Of a stretch of 48,986 nt of DNA, positions 13,860 to 23,002 are shown piece by piece. This stretch comes from a bacterium. GTDB lineage: Bacteria > Planctomycetota > Planctomycetia > Planctomycetales > Planctomycetaceae. Both the position numbers and the translations under genes were made by a program. Position 1 is the stretch's first letter. Each line of letters starts with the position of its first letter. The stretch is from assembly GCA_016124895.1 (NCBI GenBank), contig WGMU01000145.1, positions 1-48,986 of the forward strand. Reading direction: 5' to 3'. Below the pieces are notes generated by a model. The model saw only the letters and a list, made by a program, of their open reading frames with translations, was not told the DNA's origin and did no database searches.

Positions 13860-14363
13860 CTAACTGGCGGCTCCGGGTTTCTGCGGTGGTTTGAACTTGA
13901 TGTTCTTGATGTACTTGACGACGCGCTGCGTACGCGGGTCGACACGGCCGGTACAGGCTCCGACGGCACTGATGACGTTCTTGAAATGCAGGTTGTAATC
14001 TGCGTCGATTTCGACAGCCATGTCTTCTGCCAGCGGGTTATCCGGCGAGCCGATCAGTCGCAGAATCTCGATGTTCAGCCGCTTGAACGCGTCCGAGTCG
14101 TTTCCCAGCGGACGACTGCCGAGATACACACCAACCAGTGTGCCGTCGGGATTCGCCCGCAGCTTGACCTTTGTATCCAGCGGCGGCGGATCAGGCGATG
14201 GTTCAGTCGGTTTACCCCGGGCCGGCATGTTGATGTTGAAGTCGCCTTCCGGCTCGATCAGCTTCAGTGTCAGCATGAAGAAAATCAGCAACTGGAACAC
14301 GACGTCGATCATGGCCGACATGTTCGTTTCCAGTTTTTCCTGAGGCTTGCGGTTCCGAGCCAT
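13860..14363 (-). CDS. ExbD/TolR family biopolymer transport protein (second copy)
   Basis: 167-aa protein with one transmembrane helix (about residues 16-36) preceded by MSAMIDVVFQLLIFFM, the ExbD/TolR signature with the proton-carrying Asp in MIDVVF. It is followed by a Pro-rich linker and a periplasmic domain. Its C-terminal GACTGRVDPRTQRVVKYI segment is unlike the first copy. It is the last gene of the minus-strand TPR-TPR-ExbB-ExbD-ExbD operon, 74 nt after the first ExbD. No clear Shine-Dalgarno precedes the ATG at 14363. Known family role: forms a proton-motive-force-driven complex with an ExbB-like channel to energise envelope processes. Confidence 0.92.
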   Translation of the reverse strand: MARNRKPQEKLETNMSAMIDVVFQLLIFFMLTLKLIEPEGDFNINMPARGKPTEPSPDPPPLDTKVKLRANPDGTLVGVYLGSRPLGNDSDAFKRLNIEILRLIGSPDNPLAEDMAVEIDADYNLHFKNVISAVGACTGRVDPRTQRVVKYIKNIKFKPPQKPGAAS

Positions 14364-14437
14364 AACTCTGCACTCGATTCAGAACAAATTGCCTTCGACC
14401 ACCGCCAGCATGCCTCGCTGGCGATTCCGAATCCTGT

Positions 14438-14923
14438 CTACTGACCTTCGCTGCTGGACATAGCCGACATGGCGAACTTCTCGAAGCCGGCATCCTGGGC
14501 CAGTTTGATCATTTCCTGAACGACGCCGGTTGGAACTTCGGCATCCGCTCGAATCTTCACTGTGACATCTTTCGGCTCGACTTCGCGGTTCCGATACAGA
14601 CGCGCTTCCTGTTCCAGCGCCTTGCTGGACCCCAGCGGAGGCATCATGTCCTCGCCGCCGAAGTTGAACAGGAACGGATCTGGATTCGTCCGCTCCCCTC
14701 TTACGTCGCGCAGGTAGCCGACGTTAAGCGTGATCTCGTGTTCGATTTTGACTTCCGGCGGTTTGGCCAGCGCATCACGCGGCAGCTTCACGCGTTCGTC
14801 CGCCTGAGTCTGTTCGAAGTTGTTGATCACCATGAAGAAGGCGATCAACTGAAACACGATGTCGATCATCGGCGTCATGTCGACTTCAATCGAGCCGATA
14901 CCGGAAGATCGTTTCTTCGCCAT
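14438..14923 (-). CDS. ExbD/TolR family biopolymer transport protein (first copy)
   Basis: 161-aa inner-membrane protein. The N-terminal IEVDMTPMIDIVFQLIAFFM contains the conserved Asp of the ExbD/TolR helix (about residues 16-34). A periplasmic domain ends in VTVKIRADAEVPTGVVQEMI and AQDAGFEKFAMSA, which closely follows the TolR/ExbD fold (LRAD, V..vm...AGF). It is thus the more canonical of the two copies. It lies 89 nt downstream of the ExbB-like gene and just upstream of the second ExbD, with which it could form a hetero-oligomeric stator. Confidence 0.93.
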   Translation of the reverse strand: MAKKRSSGIGSIEVDMTPMIDIVFQLIAFFMVINNFEQTQADERVKLPRDALAKPPEVKIEHEITLNVGYLRDVRGERTNPDPFLFNFGGEDMMPPLGSSKALEQEARLYRNREVEPKDVTVKIRADAEVPTGVVQEMIKLAQDAGFEKFAMSAMSSSEGQ

Positions 14924-15012
14924 TGATCTGTTCCGCAGAAATAAGAAGTTGGCTCAGACAGTCAAAGCCCGCGAGGCATTCGGCGCACCGCGAGTTGATT
15001 CCAGGCAATCAC

Positions 15013-15927
15013 TTACTGCTGCGGCGCAGCAGGGGCGGCCGCCGGAGCGGCACCACCGGCGGGCTTCTGCGGCTGAGCCTGACGACCAGCCTGGGCGAAG
15101 CGGCTCATCAAACCTTCGCTGACCATGCTGACTTCCATAATGAAGCGAGCGATCCGGTTTCGCAGCACGGCGTAGGCGACCATCGCGGGAATGGCGACGA
15201 CCAGACCTTCCAGCGTCGTGAACAGAGCACTCGAAATACCACCAGCGAGTTCGGACGGCTTCGGTGTCGTCGGCGAGGTTGCGATGACACGGAACGACAT
15301 AATCATACCGTAGACCGTTCCCATCAGGCCGAGCATCGGGGCGATGGCGCTGATCAGAGCGAGGTAGCTGAGACGGTGTTCGAGGGCCATATTCTCGTCG
15401 TCGCCGACTTCCTGCATCCCTTCAACTGCTCGTTCGTAGCCAAGATTGACTTTGGCGAGTCCGGCAGCCAGCACGCGGGCAACCAGAGAGTCATCCGCCC
15501 GTGCCTGCTCGTACGCGCCTTGAAAATCACGAGCATTCAGCCGCTGCTCGAACTGCTCGATGAACGACTGCGGGACGAAGTTGTCACGCCGCACCTGCAT
15601 AATATTCATCATGACGAGAGCAACCATCATGAAGCTGAGCAGCAGAATCAGTCCACCGAAGATGCCCGACGCTTCGATCATCCACGACAGGAAACTCTGC
15701 TCGGCATCCATGGCCGGCCCCGGCTCTTCGGCCGCAGTGTCGGCACCACCTGTATCGGCTCCTTCGTCCGCCGCAGGCGCTTCGGGCTCGGCAACGGCTT
15801 CGCCACCTTCGTCCTGCCAGGCAACCGCCTGCGACGGAACGAACAGGAACGCGGCGACGCAGAACAAAGCGCCCATGACAATCGAGCGGAACGTTGACAG
15901 GCGGCTGTCAAAACCGAGCTGTGGCAT
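15013..15927 (-). CDS. MotA/TolQ/ExbB family proton channel protein
   Basis: 304-aa protein with a cleavable signal peptide (about residues 12-36, ending AVAWQ), a long Ala/Glu/Asp-rich periplasmic linker, then three helices. The first is at about residues 80-105. The ExbB core follows: LSYLALISAIAPMLGLMGTVYGMI and SALFTTLEGLVVAIPAMVAY. The C-terminus is a low-complexity Ala/Pro/Gln tail. GAGGAG ends 8 nt before the ATG at 15927 on the minus strand, fixing this start. It forms the channel with the two ExbD proteins; the TPR proteins encoded upstream in the operon are likely partners. An extended N-terminal signal plus linker is typical of planctomycete and Bacteroidetes-like ExbB homologues. 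Confidence 0.93.
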   Translation of the reverse strand: MPQLGFDSRLSTFRSIVMGALFCVAAFLFVPSQAVAWQDEGGEAVAEPEAPAADEGADTGGADTAAEEPGPAMDAEQSFLSWMIEASGIFGGLILLLSFMMVALVMMNIMQVRRDNFVPQSFIEQFEQRLNARDFQGAYEQARADDSLVARVLAAGLAKVNLGYERAVEGMQEVGDDENMALEHRLSYLALISAIAPMLGLMGTVYGMIMSFRVIATSPTTPKPSELAGGISSALFTTLEGLVVAIPAMVAYAVLRNRIARFIMEVSMVSEGLMSRFAQAGRQAQPQKPAGGAAPAAAPAAPQQ

Positions 15928-16057
15928 TGTGAAGTCTCCTCGCGGCGGATTCGCCAGATGTTTCAGTAACCCGTTGTTTCAGTGAGTTCAAAGCGTTGAA
16001 CAAAATCAGGCAACCCGCTGCGCTGGCCACCTGCAGAATCTGACTCGACCGACCTGC

Positions 16058-17104
16058 TTACTGGCCGAGTTTCTTAGCCCATTCCGTGTTGGGATAGTTT
16101 TCTCGAAGTTCCTGACTGGCAGCGAGGCCTCGCTCCGGCTGGCCAGCCGTCGCCCAGAGCGACGAAAGATGGTAGAGCGCCTCAGCGTTCAGAGCCGCCT
16201 CCTTCTCAAACAGCACAGGCACGTGCAGGTAAGCAAGGATTGCTTCCTTCGTCTTACCGAGTAAACGCAGACTGTCGCCTTTTCTTACAAAAGCTTCTGC
16301 CTGAACGGAACTGTCTTCCGGATCGGCAGCCTGCAATGCCTGGTTGACTGTGTCGAGAGCCTGCTGGGCATTGCCCTGCTGCAGTGTAACCGTCGCCTTG
16401 CCGAGCAGAGCCTCATTTCGTCGCGAGATCTCCGCCGGAGAACTGGCCGTCTGCCCGAGCACAGCCTCGAACGACGACAGCGCCGACGCCAGGTCACCCT
16501 TCTTCAGAGCCAGCTTTGCCGACGCATTCTGAGCAGCCATCTTGTAGTCGGACCACGGGGCTTGACTGAGCTGCTGAAACGCGGCTGCGGCTCCGTCAAA
16601 TTCCTGTCGTGCCAACTGAACGCGGCCAAGCAGGAACACGGCATCGAAAAACCGGGCGTTACTGCCGTTGGCCTTTGTAAAGGCGTCGAGCTTCTTTGCG
16701 GCGTCTTCGAGCTGCGCAGCGTCCGATTTGTCGAGCCCGTTTTGCGCGATCAGGCTTGCCATGAGAAAGTCGATCTCGGCTTTAATATCGCCTTTCGCTT
16801 TCGGGTCAGAGGCGCTCTTGCCGAGTTCCTCAATCGCCCGTTCGGTATTTCCGTTTCTGGCGGCGACGCGTGCACCGCTCAACGCCAGCGGTTCATCATC
16901 CCAGCGAATGTCAAGAATATCGTTGGCGGGCACGGTGACATCCGCGCCAGCCGGTGGCTTTATCTTCACTCCGTCACGGGTCACGTCAGTGATTCCGCCG
17001 CGGATGGGCTTGTCAGAACGGCGGGAGACCTCATCAAAGGCATCCGCCGAAACGGCGCTCAGCAGCAAACTGGCGATGACGATCAGAGCACTGAACTGCT
17101 TCAT
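16058..17104 (-). CDS. Exported TPR-repeat protein
   Basis: 348-aa protein with a signal peptide (ALIVIASLLLSAVSADA, about residues 5-22). A small beta-rich domain follows at about 25-75 (ITDVTRDGVKIKPPAGADVTV, resembling an SH3-like strand pattern). The rest is helical tetratricopeptide-like repeats, for example AQNASAKLALKKGDLASALSSFEAVL, NEALLGKATVTLQQGNAQQALDTV and AEALYHLSSLWATAGQPERGL. The ATG at 17104 begins the signal peptide; an upstream in-frame ATG at 17179 would add 25 hydrophilic residues. It lies between the giant TPR protein and ExbB, 130 nt before the latter. Likely a periplasmic scaffold of the Exb-type complex; this role is inferred. Confidence 0.85.
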   Translation of the reverse strand: MKQFSALIVIASLLLSAVSADAFDEVSRRSDKPIRGGITDVTRDGVKIKPPAGADVTVPANDILDIRWDDEPLALSGARVAARNGNTERAIEELGKSASDPKAKGDIKAEIDFLMASLIAQNGLDKSDAAQLEDAAKKLDAFTKANGSNARFFDAVFLLGRVQLARQEFDGAAAAFQQLSQAPWSDYKMAAQNASAKLALKKGDLASALSSFEAVLGQTASSPAEISRRNEALLGKATVTLQQGNAQQALDTVNQALQAADPEDSSVQAEAFVRKGDSLRLLGKTKEAILAYLHVPVLFEKEAALNAEALYHLSSLWATAGQPERGLAASQELRENYPNTEWAKKLGQ

Positions 17105-17206
17105 AGGTAAACTCGCGGAAAGACTTCCTTCAATTTCCAATTCGGATTCCGTCAATCGGGTCGACGGAGAATCCAGCAAATCACGCAGCGACTCATTTAT
17201 CTACAT

Positions 17207-20200
17207 CTACTCGCCGCCAGTCTCGTTCTTCCGTTCCTGTTCGGCTTTGGCTTTTGCCTGAGCAGCACGTCGGCGACGCAGTTTTTCTTTTTCTTCGGGC
17301 GTCAGTGGCCGTTTCGGTTTCTCGCCGGCCGTAGCCGCCTGTCCTGCACCTGTGGGAGCCTGAGCTGGAGCCGCAGACTTTGCAGGTGCTGCAGGAGCCG
17401 CCGCAGCGGGACGTTTCTTCTTTGGAGCGGGAGCTGGTGGCGGAGCAATGATCGGAGCGTCAATCTGAGTGACTGCCAGCGCCGACGACGGACGCCGCCC
17501 CTTCGACCCTTTCATCACCATGAACGCGCCGCCGCCGATACCCAGCAGAGCCACAACTCCGAACATCGCGTATGTCAGACCGGAACCAGATTCTTCGGCA
17601 GCCTTTTCGACATTTGCGCTGGGCGATTTCTTTTTCGGTTTCGTTGCCGCCTTAGTCTCGGCCACGACCTGTTCACGAGGTTTCGGTTCAAAAGACTTTG
17701 GACGTTCGAGTGCCACCGGCGTCAGCGTGCCTTCGCTTCGCTGAATGTCCTGAAAAAGCACGTCGAATCTGACCCACCAGTCGTCATCGAAATTCTGCGT
17801 GATGGCAGCGAAGGTGTTGATTGTGGACTTCGCTCGCTCGAACTGCGACTTTCTTTCCGGACCGGTCAGTGCTTTACCGTACTCGTGCTGGCAGGTCGCG
17901 AGGTTGTACTGCGATTCGTACAACCGGTCTTCCCAGCGAGTCGCCGCATCCGGACCGCCAGCTTCAATAGTTCGCTGGAGCTGCACCGCGGTCTGCCCCC
18001 AGCCCCAGACGCTGGACGCCTTATCGCCAATCATGGCCACCTGCAGCTTCTTGTACGTGTCGCCCTGGCCGCTGGTTCCCCAGTCCTGATAAACAGAGGC
18101 CGCCTCCATCTGAGCATCCAGAGTTCGCGGTTTCGCTTTGATGATGGCCTTAACCAGCTCTTCCGCCTGCTCGAAGTTGCCCTGATTGCGGCGGCAGTTG
18201 ACCAGCCGCAACCGGACGGAATCCAGTCGTGCGGCGTCGATGAACTTGTCGTCAGCAGACGCGCGATCGAGGATCGACTGATACGCTGCGGCAGCCCGGT
18301 CGAAATACTTTGCTGAGGCAGCGGGATCGTCCGAACTGCCCTGAGCCAGGCCGTAGTTCGTCTCACCAATCCACGTCAGCGAGTTGACCGTCTGGTCTTT
18401 GCGTTTAAAGAGGTCGTCGAGGAACGTCTCGAAGGACGATCGTACCTGATTGAACTGCTCAACCTTTCCAGCGGCTTTGAGCTGCGCCAGTTCCTGCTTC
18501 AGTTCGTCGCCGAGCTGCCTGTAGATCTCAGTCAGAGCTGCTCCGCCACCGCCACCGATTTTCTCCAGACGATTCATCGTCGCGCGGGCGTCGTCGAGGT
18601 GCTCGTTGCCGAGTCCGACATAACATCGCAACAGCAACTGGTAGGCCAGAGACGCGAACGAGATGCTCTTCACGCTGCCGGTATCTGTCGGCCGCTTCGA
18701 TTCATCGTCGACCTGAATCGCTCCAATGACCGCGTGCGGATCCTTCATCAACAGATTCACGCCTTCCTGATACTTCTGCTGCGAAACGAGAATCTGGACG
18801 AGCGACACTTTCGCAGCGATCAACTCGTCGGTGGCAGATGTCGCCGCGGGCGTTTCCTTTTCGCCGCGCTGAATTCCGGTTCTCAGGTGCTTCTCAGCGG
18901 CCACCATCCACTCGTCAAGCTGCTGCTGAGACGGTCGATCGGCCTCAGCTTTGTTGGCCGCCAGAACGTAGGCACTCCAGTACGCCTGCCCGGCCAGAGT
19001 CTGAGCTTCAGTGTAGCGTGCTGCAGTTTCGGGAATCTGGCTGAACCAGTTGGCGGCTTCCGGGAAGTCATCGAGCATTCGATAAACGCGGCCAAGCTGA
19101 TCACGGGCGTCCATGGCGCGGTCACTCTCCGGCCACTTCGCAATCAGGAACTCGGCCATTTCACGCATCTGAGCGACATCGATCTTCTGATCCGCCTTGC
19201 GCTTCAGGCGACCATTCTCGTTGAATGCCTGCACATAAGCAGCCATCGACATATAGGCGGAATCCTGTGCCTGCACGGGATTCTCGTCGCCGTAATGGCG
19301 AGCCACAAAGCCGGTCAGAATCGCGGCTTCATAACTCTGTCGCCCAAGATAGTACATGTAGCCGAGATAGTACCTGGCCCGGTTGACGTCACCGACCGCG
19401 GTGTCGGCATCGGCCAGTCGCAAGGCGATCTTCAGCAGACGAACGGCTTCGTCGATGTGGATCTGCAGATCCTGCTGAGCTTTCTTCCTGTCGTCTGCCG
19501 ACTTTGCATTCTCGAGCGCTTCCTGCAGCGGCTTCGTCTTCTTTGTCACGAGATCCTGCGCGAGACTGAAAGCCGTCTCGAAGTCTTCCGGGTCTGCCAG
19601 CGCGTCACCACCGCGCAGCTTGAGCATCAGGTCACGTTCCTTGAACGTCGCCAGATCCTTGTATTGCCCGGGAAAGCGTTTGATCGTGCGGATATTGGCC
19701 AGCGCACTGTTGATATACCGTCGTCGATCCGGCTCCGACGTTTCACGGTTATCAGCCAGGGCCTCGTACGCCAGAGCCTGCTCCCATTGAATGCCGATCC
19801 CGACGTTCGTGTACTTCTTGCTGCCTCTGGCGGCGGCGATCCACTCGCCTGCCTGGTCAATGACAAGCTGATAGTCCTTGCGTTTTTCATGGTTCAGGCA
19901 GATCAGTTTGAAATGCCGCACCTGATCCTGAAGCTGGATCATCGCCGCTGACTGGCCTGGGTGTTCGAGCAGTTCGTTGTAGATGCCGATCGCCCGCTGA
20001 ATATCGTTCTGCTCTTCGTAGCACTTCCCCTGCCAAAGCCGCGCGTACAGGCCGCCGAGCTGGCTGCGGTATTTCGAATGGATGTCTTCATACTGAGCTG
20101 CCGCGTCGCGCAGCTTCGCACCGTATTCGGTCGAGTCCTTGTCGTATGTCTGAGCTTCCTCGTAGGTGCAATTCGCGAGGTCGAGCTGTGCGAGGATGTA

Positions 20201-20788
20201 TTTGATCTCCGCCTGCCGCCGCTCTTCATACAACTGCTTGTCTTCGACCTGATCGATGAACTTCGGATAGCCTTCCCACTTCGCTTTGTGCTGATCGTGA
20301 GCAGTCTGATAGATCGCCCGCGCCTGCTTGACGAGGTCGCGTGCCCGCTGCTGAAACTCGGCACGATTCTCGTGGTTGCCGGGTGAGCGTGACTGCCAGA
20401 CCTCAACGCGCACCTGCCCGAGCAGAATGCCGGCCTTTTCGGTATTCGCCTCTCCGGCTCGCGGATGATTCGGCGACGCCTTCGTGAACTCATCGAGGTA
20501 GCCGAGCGCCTCCTCGAGCTGCCGTTTCTGGACTTCCGGATTCGTAATCGATGTGCTGCGAGCCATCGACAGAAGAGTCGCTGCCTTCTCGAACGGCACC
20601 AGCTCTTTGATTTCCGTCGGGCAATTCGGGTCGTCACGCAGCGTATCGAGATACTCGAGAGTCGTGTCGAGATAGCCACGCTGTCGCAGTCCTTCCATGA
20701 ACTCGACATAAGGCTCTTTGGCGTGAATCTCCGGAACGGCGAGCGCGGCGAGCGTCAGTACGACGACCACTGAGCGGAGAATCCTCAT
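17207..20788 (-). CDS. Giant TPR-repeat protein with C-terminal membrane anchor
   Basis: 1193-aa protein. Signal peptide at about residues 1-23 (ILRSVVVVLTLAALAVPEIHA). About a thousand residues of helical TPR-like repeats follow (ARAIYQTAHDQHKAKWEGYPK, LYARLWQGKCYEEQNDIQRAI, and others). A single transmembrane helix lies at about 1070-1092 (YAMFGVVALLGIGGGAFMV). The tail is cytoplasmic-type, rich in Ala/Pro/Lys and ends in a basic coiled segment. The topology is therefore a large periplasmic solenoid anchored at its C-terminus. AAGGA before the ATG at 20788 and the signal peptide fix the start; the open frame runs back to 21004 without coding character. It is the first gene of the operon leading to ExbB/ExbD. 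A role in force transmission or cargo binding is inferred. Confidence 0.85.
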   Translation of the reverse strand: MRILRSVVVVLTLAALAVPEIHAKEPYVEFMEGLRQRGYLDTTLEYLDTLRDDPNCPTEIKELVPFEKAATLLSMARSTSITNPEVQKRQLEEALGYLDEFTKASPNHPRAGEANTEKAGILLGQVRVEVWQSRSPGNHENRAEFQQRARDLVKQARAIYQTAHDQHKAKWEGYPKFIDQVEDKQLYEERRQAEIKYILAQLDLANCTYEEAQTYDKDSTEYGAKLRDAAAQYEDIHSKYRSQLGGLYARLWQGKCYEEQNDIQRAIGIYNELLEHPGQSAAMIQLQDQVRHFKLICLNHEKRKDYQLVIDQAGEWIAAARGSKKYTNVGIGIQWEQALAYEALADNRETSEPDRRRYINSALANIRTIKRFPGQYKDLATFKERDLMLKLRGGDALADPEDFETAFSLAQDLVTKKTKPLQEALENAKSADDRKKAQQDLQIHIDEAVRLLKIALRLADADTAVGDVNRARYYLGYMYYLGRQSYEAAILTGFVARHYGDENPVQAQDSAYMSMAAYVQAFNENGRLKRKADQKIDVAQMREMAEFLIAKWPESDRAMDARDQLGRVYRMLDDFPEAANWFSQIPETAARYTEAQTLAGQAYWSAYVLAANKAEADRPSQQQLDEWMVAAEKHLRTGIQRGEKETPAATSATDELIAAKVSLVQILVSQQKYQEGVNLLMKDPHAVIGAIQVDDESKRPTDTGSVKSISFASLAYQLLLRCYVGLGNEHLDDARATMNRLEKIGGGGGAALTEIYRQLGDELKQELAQLKAAGKVEQFNQVRSSFETFLDDLFKRKDQTVNSLTWIGETNYGLAQGSSDDPAASAKYFDRAAAAYQSILDRASADDKFIDAARLDSVRLRLVNCRRNQGNFEQAEELVKAIIKAKPRTLDAQMEAASVYQDWGTSGQGDTYKKLQVAMIGDKASSVWGWGQTAVQLQRTIEAGGPDAATRWEDRLYESQYNLATCQHEYGKALTGPERKSQFERAKSTINTFAAITQNFDDDWWVRFDVLFQDIQRSEGTLTPVALERPKSFEPKPREQVVAETKAATKPKKKSPSANVEKAAEESGSGLTYAMFGVVALLGIGGGAFMVMKGSKGRRPSSALAVTQIDAPIIAPPPAPAPKKKRPAAAAPAAPAKSAAPAQAPTGAGQAATAGEKPKRPLTPEEKEKLRRRRAAQAKAKAEQERKNETGGE

Positions 20789-21105: not shown

Positions 21106-22113
21106 TCAGTCAATCACCGTCTTGTACGGCTCACCGGCGATCTCCTGAACGTAACGCGGAACCAGATAACCAGGCAGTCGTTTCCGCAGTTCGTGGATCA
21201 AGCGCCGGCCACGGGCAACCGGCACCTCGAAGTGAGCCGCTCCGGCCACGCGATCGAGCTGGTGCAGATAATAGGGTGTCACTCCGAGATCGATCAGCGA
21301 CTCGGACAGGTCCGCCAGGGCGTCCACGGAATCGTTGACGCCGCGCAACAGGACGGCCTGATTAAGCACGAGCAGCCCGGTTGCTCGCAGACGCTGCAGT
21401 GAGTCGGCACAATCGTCGACCAGCTCGGCCGCATGATTCGCGTGGACAACGACCGCTGGCGTCAGCCGCGTCTCTGCCAGAATTCGCAGCAATCCGCCGG
21501 TCACACGATCTGGCAGAACGATCGGCAGCCGCGTGTGAATTCTCAGCCGCCGCAGGTGCGGAATTGCCGAGAGCCGTTCGACCATCTCACTGAGCCGCTC
21601 GTCGGTCAGCATCAATGGATCGCCGCCGCTCAGCAGGACTTCCGTGATCGACGTGTCGGCTTCGAGTTCGCGAAATGCAGACTCCCAGGCGTCCAGTCGC
21701 CGCGGTTCGTCGCCGTACGGATAGTGACGCCGGAAGCAGTATCGGCAGTGGACCGCGCAGCTTCCGGCGGCAATCAGGAGTGCTCGACCAGCGTACTTCT
21801 GCAGTAGCCCCGGAGAACGGCGAAACTCCACATCCTCGACCGCGTCGAGTGAAAACCCCTGCACCGACCGACGTTCCTCGCCGATTGGCAGCACCTGTCG
21901 CAGTAAGGGATCTGCCGGATCGGCGCGCCGCATCCGACCGAGATAGCTCTCAGGTACAAGCAGCGGAAAATCAGTCGCAACCTCGCGTGAGGTTGCCAGA
22001 AAGCCGTCGGGCAGCAGTGACTGCGACACTTCGAGTCGACACAGCAGCTCAGCCGGGTCGCGGATCGCACGAGCCAGGGAACGCTTCCACTGGCGATCGT
22101 CCGCGGTTTGCAT
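21106..22113 (-). CDS. epmB: EF-P beta-lysylation protein EpmB (lysine 2,3-aminomutase-like radical SAM)
   Basis: 335-aa radical SAM enzyme converting (S)-alpha-lysine to (R)-beta-lysine for elongation factor P modification. The cluster motif CAVHCRYCFRRH has Cys119, Cys123 and Cys126. EVLLSGGDPLMLTD, LRRLRIHTRLPIVLP, GLLVLNQAVLLRGVND, GVTPYYLHQLD and the ending GYLVPRYVQEIAGEPYKT match E. coli EpmB closely. It lacks the long C-terminal extension of true KamA. The ATG at 22113 matches where E. coli EpmB begins; an in-frame ATG at 22260 would add 49 unconserved residues. It is divergent from the EF-P gene, its substrate. No EpmA (ligase) is in the window. Confidence 0.93.
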   Translation of the reverse strand: MQTADDRQWKRSLARAIRDPAELLCRLEVSQSLLPDGFLATSREVATDFPLLVPESYLGRMRRADPADPLLRQVLPIGEERRSVQGFSLDAVEDVEFRRSPGLLQKYAGRALLIAAGSCAVHCRYCFRRHYPYGDEPRRLDAWESAFRELEADTSITEVLLSGGDPLMLTDERLSEMVERLSAIPHLRRLRIHTRLPIVLPDRVTGGLLRILAETRLTPAVVVHANHAAELVDDCADSLQRLRATGLLVLNQAVLLRGVNDSVDALADLSESLIDLGVTPYYLHQLDRVAGAAHFEVPVARGRRLIHELRKRLPGYLVPRYVQEIAGEPYKTVID

Positions 22114-22435
22114 GTCTCGTCCGGCCTTCAGAACCTCGAAAGTCGACGCCGCAGTTTCGACCCGCGACTCGGTCCCAGGGTGAGACAGCGTCGCGGGTAA
22201 ACCTGTCGTGGCACGCTCAGATTCAGATTCCTCGAAAGCCGCCGTCGGCGAAATTCCCATTGGGAAAAACCAATCATAAATCCGCCGGAAATGCAGCCCA
22301 GCTTCGGCTTTCCGACTGTTCCGCCGTTTTGCTATCGTCCCGCCCCTTCGCGAGCGTTAACCACGCCGAAGATCCAGAAATCCGCCCTGCAGCCCGCGGG
22401 GAAGCATAAACCGTCTTCACAAAGCGAGTCATCTC

Positions 22436-23002
22436 ATGCCGAGTATCAACGCCCAGGAATTCAAAAAGGGAATGAAAGTCATCGTCGAGGGCGACCCCTA
22501 CGACATGCTGGAAGTCCATTTCGTTAAGCCAGGCAAGGGACAGGCGCTCTACAAGCTGCGGCTCCGTAATCTCCTGAAGGGAACGATCATCAATCCCACA
22601 CTGCGCAGCGGCGACAGCCTCGAACAGGCCGACGTTCGCAAAACCACCGGTCAGTTCCTGTACCGCGACGGAACCGGCTTCGTTTTCATGGATAACGACA
22701 CGTACGAGCAGTACACGATCGACGCCGACCGGATGGGCGACAAAGCCAACTTCCTGCTGGATGGAGCGATCTGCGACCTGCTGTTCTTTAACGACCAGCT
22801 CATCGACGTTGATCCGCCGCCGCATGTCGTTGTCGAAGTGACCTATACCGAACCCGCCGCGAAGGGTAACACCGCAACGAACGTCACCAAACCGGCGACC
22901 GTGCAGACGGGAGCCGAAGTCTTCGTTCCGGCGTTTATCGAACAGGGCGAAATGATTAGAGTCGACGCCCGCACGGGCGAGTACATTGAGCGGGCTCGGT
23001 AA
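22436..23002 (+). CDS. efp: Translation elongation factor P
   Basis: 188-aa protein, standard length. Domain I contains the loop VKPGKGQA with Lys34, exactly the residue that is beta-lysylated in E. coli EF-P. Domains II and III follow, with FMDNDTYEQYTID and the C-terminal GEMIRVDARTGEYIERA. It binds between the P and E sites of ribosomes stalled at polyproline and promotes peptide bond formation. It is divergent from EpmB. The ATG at 22436 gives the family N-terminus (INAQEFKKGMKV). Confidence 0.97.
   Translation: MPSINAQEFKKGMKVIVEGDPYDMLEVHFVKPGKGQALYKLRLRNLLKGTIINPTLRSGDSLEQADVRKTTGQFLYRDGTGFVFMDNDTYEQYTIDADRMGDKANFLLDGAICDLLFFNDQLIDVDPPPHVVVEVTYTEPAAKGNTATNVTKPATVQTGAEVFVPAFIEQGEMIRVDARTGEYIERAR

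Follow-up and report, generated by a model that had tools for sequence, protein, structure and literature searches.

A planctomycete operon joining two TPR genes to genes for a two-ExbD proton motor, and its possible service to an outer-membrane secretin

The known proton-driven motors of the ExbBD/TolQR family have TonB, TolA or a similar protein as their transducer, and the known secretins are run by cytoplasmic ATPases. Here we describe a locus of the Planctomycetaceae, on a contig of 48,986 nucleotides that was analysed whole (WGMU01000145.1, hereafter the window; contig C69 of an assembly of 8,134,610 bases in 195 contigs), in which five genes on the minus strand, between positions 13860 and 20788, encode in order a large tetratricopeptide repeat (TPR) protein, a second TPR protein (TPR2), an ExbB and two ExbDs. 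We give about an even chance to the reading that these genes specify a motor driven by the proton motive force (PMF), with a two-ExbD core, and that periplasmic TPR scaffolds link it to a secretin in the outer membrane, in a complex and with a cargo that we infer. Were this true, a gene set that places a two-ExbD motor among secretins across the phylum would add a new kind of output to the ExbBD/TolQR motor family, and the set would offer named candidate genes for the long-open question of intact-macromolecule uptake in planctomycetes.

Several described systems resemble the window set in part. Sets of the form TPR-tolQ-tolR-tolR occur in the PVC (Planctomycetes-Verrucomicrobia-Chlamydiae) group, with a von Willebrand factor A (vWA) protein as the proposed transducer (PMC12204202). 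Like the window set, these clusters combine a TPR gene, one TolQ-like and two unlike TolR-like genes, and no TonB or TolA; the window set differs in having two TPR genes, one of them very large, and no vWA gene that we could find, and in other classes it is flanked by secretins, which the main text of PMC12204202 never mentions. The AglRQS-Glt system of Myxococcus xanthus likewise has one TolQ-type and two TolR-type proteins with envelope partners, among which GltG, a protein with a TonB-like motif, interacts with AglR (PMC3169522); in the window set the only Glt match is a low-complexity one to GltJ, the other Glt partners not having been searched for by name. In Campylobacter, MotAB units are held by PflA and PflB, both of them periplasmic TPR proteins (PMC12222027), and the likeness extends to an N-terminal beta domain on one of the two and to a 5:2 proton motor, but the window motor is an ExbBD whose likely output is a secretin, and a structural likeness is no proof of kinship. 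With the Ton and Tol-Pal systems the window unit shares the ExbB/TolQ and ExbD/TolR families of Pfam, and it departs from them in its two ExbDs, in having no TonB, TolA, TolB or Pal, and in scores that do not reach the equivalog cut-offs. Finally, the flanking proteins of other classes share a C-terminal PF00263 domain with the secretins of type II secretion and type IV pilus systems, but have long, often TPR-bearing N-termini and are frequently paired around a proton motor. No description of the two-TPR set or of its embrace by secretins was found in the literature searched, in which the term 'secretin' also matches 'secreting', and a prior description is possible.

The five genes, separated by gaps of about 75-130 bases, are supported throughout by Pfam, with TPR families on the first two products, MotA_ExbB on the third and ExbD on the last two. 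The scores for PF01618 and for both PF02472 domains exceed the Pfam cut-offs, indicating that a channel of the 5:2 ExbBD/TolQR superfamily and its partner are present. An earlier note on this DNA, made from its letters, had proposed just this five-gene set, with a proton channel and two different ExbDs, and on both points it holds. Equivalog scores lie under their cut-offs (exbB, 62.3 bits against 206.2; ExbD_1, 23.6 and 18.2 bits against 152.95); the model that gives the window ExbB its highest score is TolQ, with 86 bits, still short of the cut-off of 221, and the TolR equivalog cut-off is not reached either.

Secretins beside the motor genes in other classes

The evidence for a secretin partner comes from loci outside the window's class, Planctomycetia. 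A search with TPR2 across 199 genomes of the phylum matched 60, of which 12 are the window's own genome or members of its class, and 20 of the 48 out-of-class loci were fetched. Twelve of these 20, from nine families, hold ExbB and ExbD, and in all 12 a co-directional secretin-core protein lies beside the set, on both sides in seven (L199, L202, L205, L206, L209, L215 and L216). Ten of the flanking proteins were scanned; all exceed the PF00263 cut-off, and TPR families are matched by seven of them as well. The other eight TPR2 loci have no ExbB, and one of them (L212) reads secretin-TPR2-secretin. The reverse test, with one flanking secretin as query, matched 197 of the 199 genomes, and 40 loci were fetched (39 out-of-class families). 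ExbB and ExbD are held by 21 of these 40 TPR-secretin loci, with the labelled genes on one strand in each case; both TPR genes are present in 17 of the 21 and secretins stand on both sides in 10, the fullest order being secretin - large TPR - TPR2 - ExbB - ExbD - ExbD - secretin. This adjacency suggests that the motor powers that outer-membrane channel.

No GspE/PilB-type ATPase was found among the six neighbour proteins scanned. At two loci (L215:137-2072, plus strand, and L216:14191-16000, minus strand) a pair of proteins with an N-terminal hydrophobic segment is encoded upstream of the first secretin; three of the four were scanned and have no Pfam match, the fourth was not scanned, and by eye they look like inner-membrane assembly proteins of pilus or type II secretion systems.

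Profiles of the secretin-linked proteins, searched against the whole window genome, led back to the window set. The profile of 18 linked TPR2 proteins (A6) placed the window TPR2 first, with 166.7 bits over positions 18-377 of 382 (next TPR protein, 74.6), and that of 19 linked large TPR proteins (A7) placed the window large TPR protein first, with 82.1 and 41.4 bits (next, 33.1). The linked ExbB profile ranked the window ExbB first of nine homologues in its own genome (247.8, next 232.3), while profiles of distant first and last ExbDs found as their best matches the first (81.8 bits, next 79.7) and second (82.1 bits, next 75.1) ExbD of the window, respectively. Judged by sequence, both ExbDs are old. 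For orthology to the secretin-linked set we see good support in the case of TPR2, fair support in that of the large TPR protein and no more than consistency in that of the motor.

A possible partner is encoded elsewhere in the window genome, in which PF00263 matches six open reading frames. One of these, a 2019-residue TPR-secretin on contig C81 (L225:8193-14249, minus strand), stands out with 284 bits in a search with the flanking-secretin profile, in which no other secretin exceeds 49; it combines a long Pro/Gln-rich, TPR-like N-terminal half with a C-terminal secretin that carries glycine-rich inserts, and we regard it as a candidate for the unlinked partner of the motor. On contig C13 (L285:6562-10201, plus strand) a Penicillinase_R (BlaI-type) repressor gene is followed by that of a 1088-residue protein with a BlaR1-type M56 peptidase, the C-terminal segment of which matches the secretin-core profile with 73 bits.

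Several observations weigh against a secretin-coupled motor. Neither in the window nor in the class loci was a secretin found beside the operon (one 28-bit fragment in L066 apart), and since no operon locus of the class adjoins one, the secretin link there comes down to orthology. The reciprocal matches are only partly independent, because nine rows each of A6 and A7 stem from the search begun with the window TPR2, the rest coming from secretin-anchored loci. The margins of ExbB and the ExbDs over their own paralogues are small, and the ExbB trees place a paralogue from the same genome (contig C112) between the window clade and the secretin-linked clade. Among the 40 secretin loci, 19 have no ExbB in range, although about half of these are stretches of less than 13 kb at contig ends; L241 and L252, like L212 among the TPR2 loci, show secretin-TPR2-secretin without Exb genes, so the parts are not always linked, L235 also has TPR parts and secretins without Exb, and L231 has two secretins and no other parts. 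The C-terminal half of the C81 secretin matches all 59 genomes of the class, with or without the operon (best E from 0 to 5e-24), so its presence discriminates nothing; a secretin-operon co-loss profile was set aside for this reason, some of the 59 matches perhaps being to other secretins. A gene for a PilT-like ATPase lies near the giant secretin on C81. Lastly, two genomes of family f3 (G038 and G047) have a motor of the window's ExbB clade and no match to the large TPR protein, by loss or divergence; motor loss in f3 was considered and dropped, the tree placing the f3 ExbBs (L281-L283) in the window's clade.

With these points in view, we picture the five genes as the inner-membrane and periplasmic part of a PMF-driven machine that would serve an outer-membrane secretin. 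ExbB would assemble into the usual pentameric channel, whose pore would contain the two ExbDs, one copy apiece, as family knowledge and the conserved residues suggest, and proton flow through the two unlike, Asp-bearing ExbDs would produce rotation or strokes. The periplasmic ExbD domains would engage both TPR proteins, to judge by their co-conservation, and the latter would serve as scaffold and relay across a wide periplasm to the TPR-bearing N-terminus of the secretin, a relay that, from gene order in other classes, may assemble, gate or energise the pore. In Planctomycetia, with secretin genes outside the cluster, the very long C81 protein would be the candidate for this place.

As to what might pass through such a pore, uptake of macromolecules is an attractive candidate. 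In Gemmata obscuriglobus, 23% of 1,065 cells took up dextran and none of 816 cells treated with carbonyl cyanide m-chlorophenyl hydrazone (CCCP) did so, and in Planctopirus crateriform structures connect the outer and cytoplasmic membranes, for which the authors speculate on a role in uptake (PMC5394234). A trans-envelope machine in which proton flow, relayed by the TPR scaffolds, pushes large molecules or fibres across secretin pores, and which in planctomycetes would itself be, or would power, the crateriform complexes with their CCCP-sensitive uptake of intact dextran and proteins, has in our view a slim chance.

The structural models bear on a different role for the TPR proteins. TPR2 is modelled as a five-strand beta domain followed by TPR helices (pLDDT 94, pTM 0.87), and structure searches with both TPR models returned generic TPR folds. 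For both models the Foldseek matches include chain 9hmf_K, from the entry 'Periplasmic scaffold of the Campylobacter jejuni flagellar motor', with TMq 0.56 for TPR2 and 0.19 for the large TPR protein. The TPR proteins might merely position the motor units, as PflA and PflB do, the linked secretins then being parts of a type II or type IV pilus system of their own: PflA is itself a beta domain with a TPR superhelix and together with PflB scaffolds 17 stators (PMC12222027), and secretin-TPR2 loci without Exb genes do exist. We consider this improbable, as the 9hmf_K match is one of hundreds to TPR proteins, with root-mean-square deviations of 12.1 and 35.0, and the recurrent embrace of the motor genes by two secretins is hard to explain if the two are unrelated.

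Retention of the set within the class and the phylum

A match to the large TPR protein was found in 54 of 59 genomes, namely the window's own and those of its family and class; of the 53 relatives with such a match, 52 are represented by a single fetched locus each. This set overlaps, some contigs being identical, a sample of named genomes in which a profile of the large TPR protein kept 80 loci, mostly from metagenome-assembled genomes of Planctomycetota/Planctomycetaceae and with a single isolate, Thalassoglobus neptunius (Planctomycetia, Planctomycetaceae). In 29 of the 52 relatives' loci ExbB and two or more ExbDs come after the TPR genes; one further locus ends after ExbB at a contig end, six are truncated, and 16 have the TPR genes without Exb genes nearby. 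In the named sample all five genes are present at 47 of the 80 loci, many of the others stopping at contig ends, and the five-gene order recurs across the phylum.

Thirteen of the 16 genomes in which TPR and Exb genes are split were fetched, and all 13 have an ExbB and two ExbD frames elsewhere (the ExbB of L272 in two frames). These 13 ExbBs join the window ExbB in a clade of 29 rows with support of 100, their own paralogues falling outside, in what is, like our other ExbB trees, a quick tree with long branches. Since all 13 carry an ExbB-ExbD-ExbD set of the window's clade, the TPR genes and the motor appear in most cases to be kept by the same genomes, those with a broken operon included. 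The earlier note had proposed to follow the operon across planctomycetes and had made its reading depend on conservation of the TPR genes with the Exb genes; such conservation is what we find.

Clustering of the neighbours of 79 loci yielded no family common to most of them, the largest cluster having 14 members of phage-integrase type, and the idea of a hidden sixth gene in the class was rejected on these grounds.

The large TPR protein and the force transducer

Both TPR proteins begin with a signal-like segment by hydropathy, in keeping with the earlier suggestion that the second is exported, and the large TPR protein has, as had also been noticed, a single C-terminal hydrophobic stretch followed by a basic Ala/Pro/Lys tail. 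Its AlphaFold2 model comprises a helical solenoid (residues 27-1019), a region of low confidence (1032-1160) and a basic helix (1164-1187), with pTM 0.48. With its gene among those of the motor and no other transducer apparent in the unit, the large TPR protein might itself be the force transducer, its helix touching ExbB in the manner of TonB's and its basic tail or solenoid extending to the outer membrane. Helix and tail are present in all 28 complete large TPR proteins from relatives in the window's family (f1) and in 73 of 74 from the named genomes, the exception, L196, having a hydrophobic stretch farther from the C-terminus than the cut used. However, none of the 15 complete homologues from elsewhere in the class (families f2-f7) has them, and six of these homologues, from f2, f5 and f7, still lie in the operon.

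The orientation of the helix also bears on this role. Mean charge is 0.0 before the helix and +4.3 after it, the after-side being the more positive in 85 of 102 proteins, and with a signal segment in front and a C-terminal helix whose far side is positive, the solenoid is predicted to be periplasmic and the tail cytosolic. The predicted topology is thus opposite to that of TonB and TolA, which argues against the tail as a force arm. TonB and TolA use a His-containing SHLS motif (PMC12204202), and the helix of the window protein contains no His. We therefore find it very improbable that the large TPR protein replaces TonB or TolA by means of its helix and tail, as the earlier note had envisaged; the tail as force arm was rejected, the anchor being restricted to one family, and the extra anchor of the window's family is more likely to keep the scaffold close to the motor than to pass on force.

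The motor might instead act through a transducer encoded elsewhere, either a vWA protein with a helix of SxxH type or an orphan TonB, and the TPR proteins would then be CpoB-like accessories. As the earlier note had stated, no TonB or TolA homologue is encoded in the unit, and no vWA gene lies there either, but the genome has an orphan TonB on contig C123 (L117:1483-2667, minus strand; PF03544, 75.9 bits) with a His-containing N-terminal helix, adjoining a gene that is GcvT-like by eye, on a contig with no ExbB or ExbD family match. Contig C154 (L113:1701-5649, minus strand) encodes two vWA proteins near another ExbB; they resemble the vWA transducers of PMC12204202 in their His-containing N-terminal helices, and that paper describes PVC clusters in which a vWA gene follows TPR-tolQ-tolR-tolR. 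With nine matches in the genome to the MotA/ExbB family and nine to ExbD, motors may be shared. We nevertheless judge such a transducer unlikely. Among the open reading frames of the fetched operon loci there are no relatives of the genome's own TonB or vWA proteins, a divergent vWA family not having been tested, and a vWA or TonB partner within the unit was rejected on that basis; it is secretins that adjoin the set in other classes, and TonB is reported in only four planctomycete genomes among those searched in PMC3422733.

The set could also be a Tol-Pal or gliding-type motor, like AglRQS, for envelope upkeep, division or surface motion. AglRQS comprises one TolQ-like and two TolR-like proteins and works with Glt proteins, one of them weakly TPR (PMC3169522); besides the preference of the window ExbB for the TolQ model, TPR2 has a weak match to tol_pal_ybgF (43.2 bits, cut-off 90.1). 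We hold this to be quite unlikely. Since no neighbour family recurs in most loci, tolB, pal and glt genes are not constant companions of the set, no systematic scan for these genes having been made; the four genes flanking the window operon encode DUF7133, DUF218, radical SAM and elongation factor P (EF-P) proteins, and the match to GltJ reaches 20.7 bits (cut-off 450) and only over the low-complexity tail.

Features of the window set and variants of its ExbDs

The features of the set are collected in Table 1.

Table 1. Features of the five-gene set, in positions of the window
Feature	Position	Strand	Details and basis
Large exported TPR solenoid	17207..20788	-	1193 aa; Pfam TPR, hydropathy, AlphaFold2
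C-terminal membrane helix of the large TPR protein, residues 1074-1092	17513..17569	-	hydropathy
Basic Ala/Pro/Lys tail of the large TPR protein, predicted cytosolic	17210..17512	-	charge asymmetry across the helix
TPR2, exported: small beta domain, then TPR helices	16058..17104	-	348 aa; Pfam TPR, model
N-terminal beta domain of TPR2, residues 24-67	16904..17035	-	five strands in the model
ExbB/TolQ-type proton channel	15013..15927	-	304 aa; PF01618, 97.6 bits
First ExbD/TolR-type subunit, channel Asp in MTPMIDIVF	14438..14923	-	161 aa; PF02472, 58.2 bits
Second ExbD/TolR-type subunit, channel Asp in MSAMIDVVF	13860..14363	-	167 aa; PF02472, 48.7 bits

The channel Asp is present in both ExbDs of the window and is kept almost throughout the relatives. 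In three of the 47 complete named loci (L152:15382-15939, L155:15213-15767 and L160:15224-15778) the last ExbD has Asn in its place, which would make these natural half-protonatable stator pairs and suits a heterodimer in which one protonatable site is enough.

Two further arrangements of motor genes were seen. In L053, L208, L251, L257 and L267 a single ExbB is followed by three or four ExbD genes, and the paralogous C112 locus of the window genome (L107:562-3739, minus strand) is a TPR-ExbB-ExbD-ExbD set close enough to a contig end that a sixth gene could be missing there.

Promoter-like sites, of which none was found, and terminator-like sites, three against 7.8 expected, were uninformative. 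Next to the set, at 21106-23002, the radical SAM gene, KamA/EpmB-like by eye, is divergent from that for EF-P.

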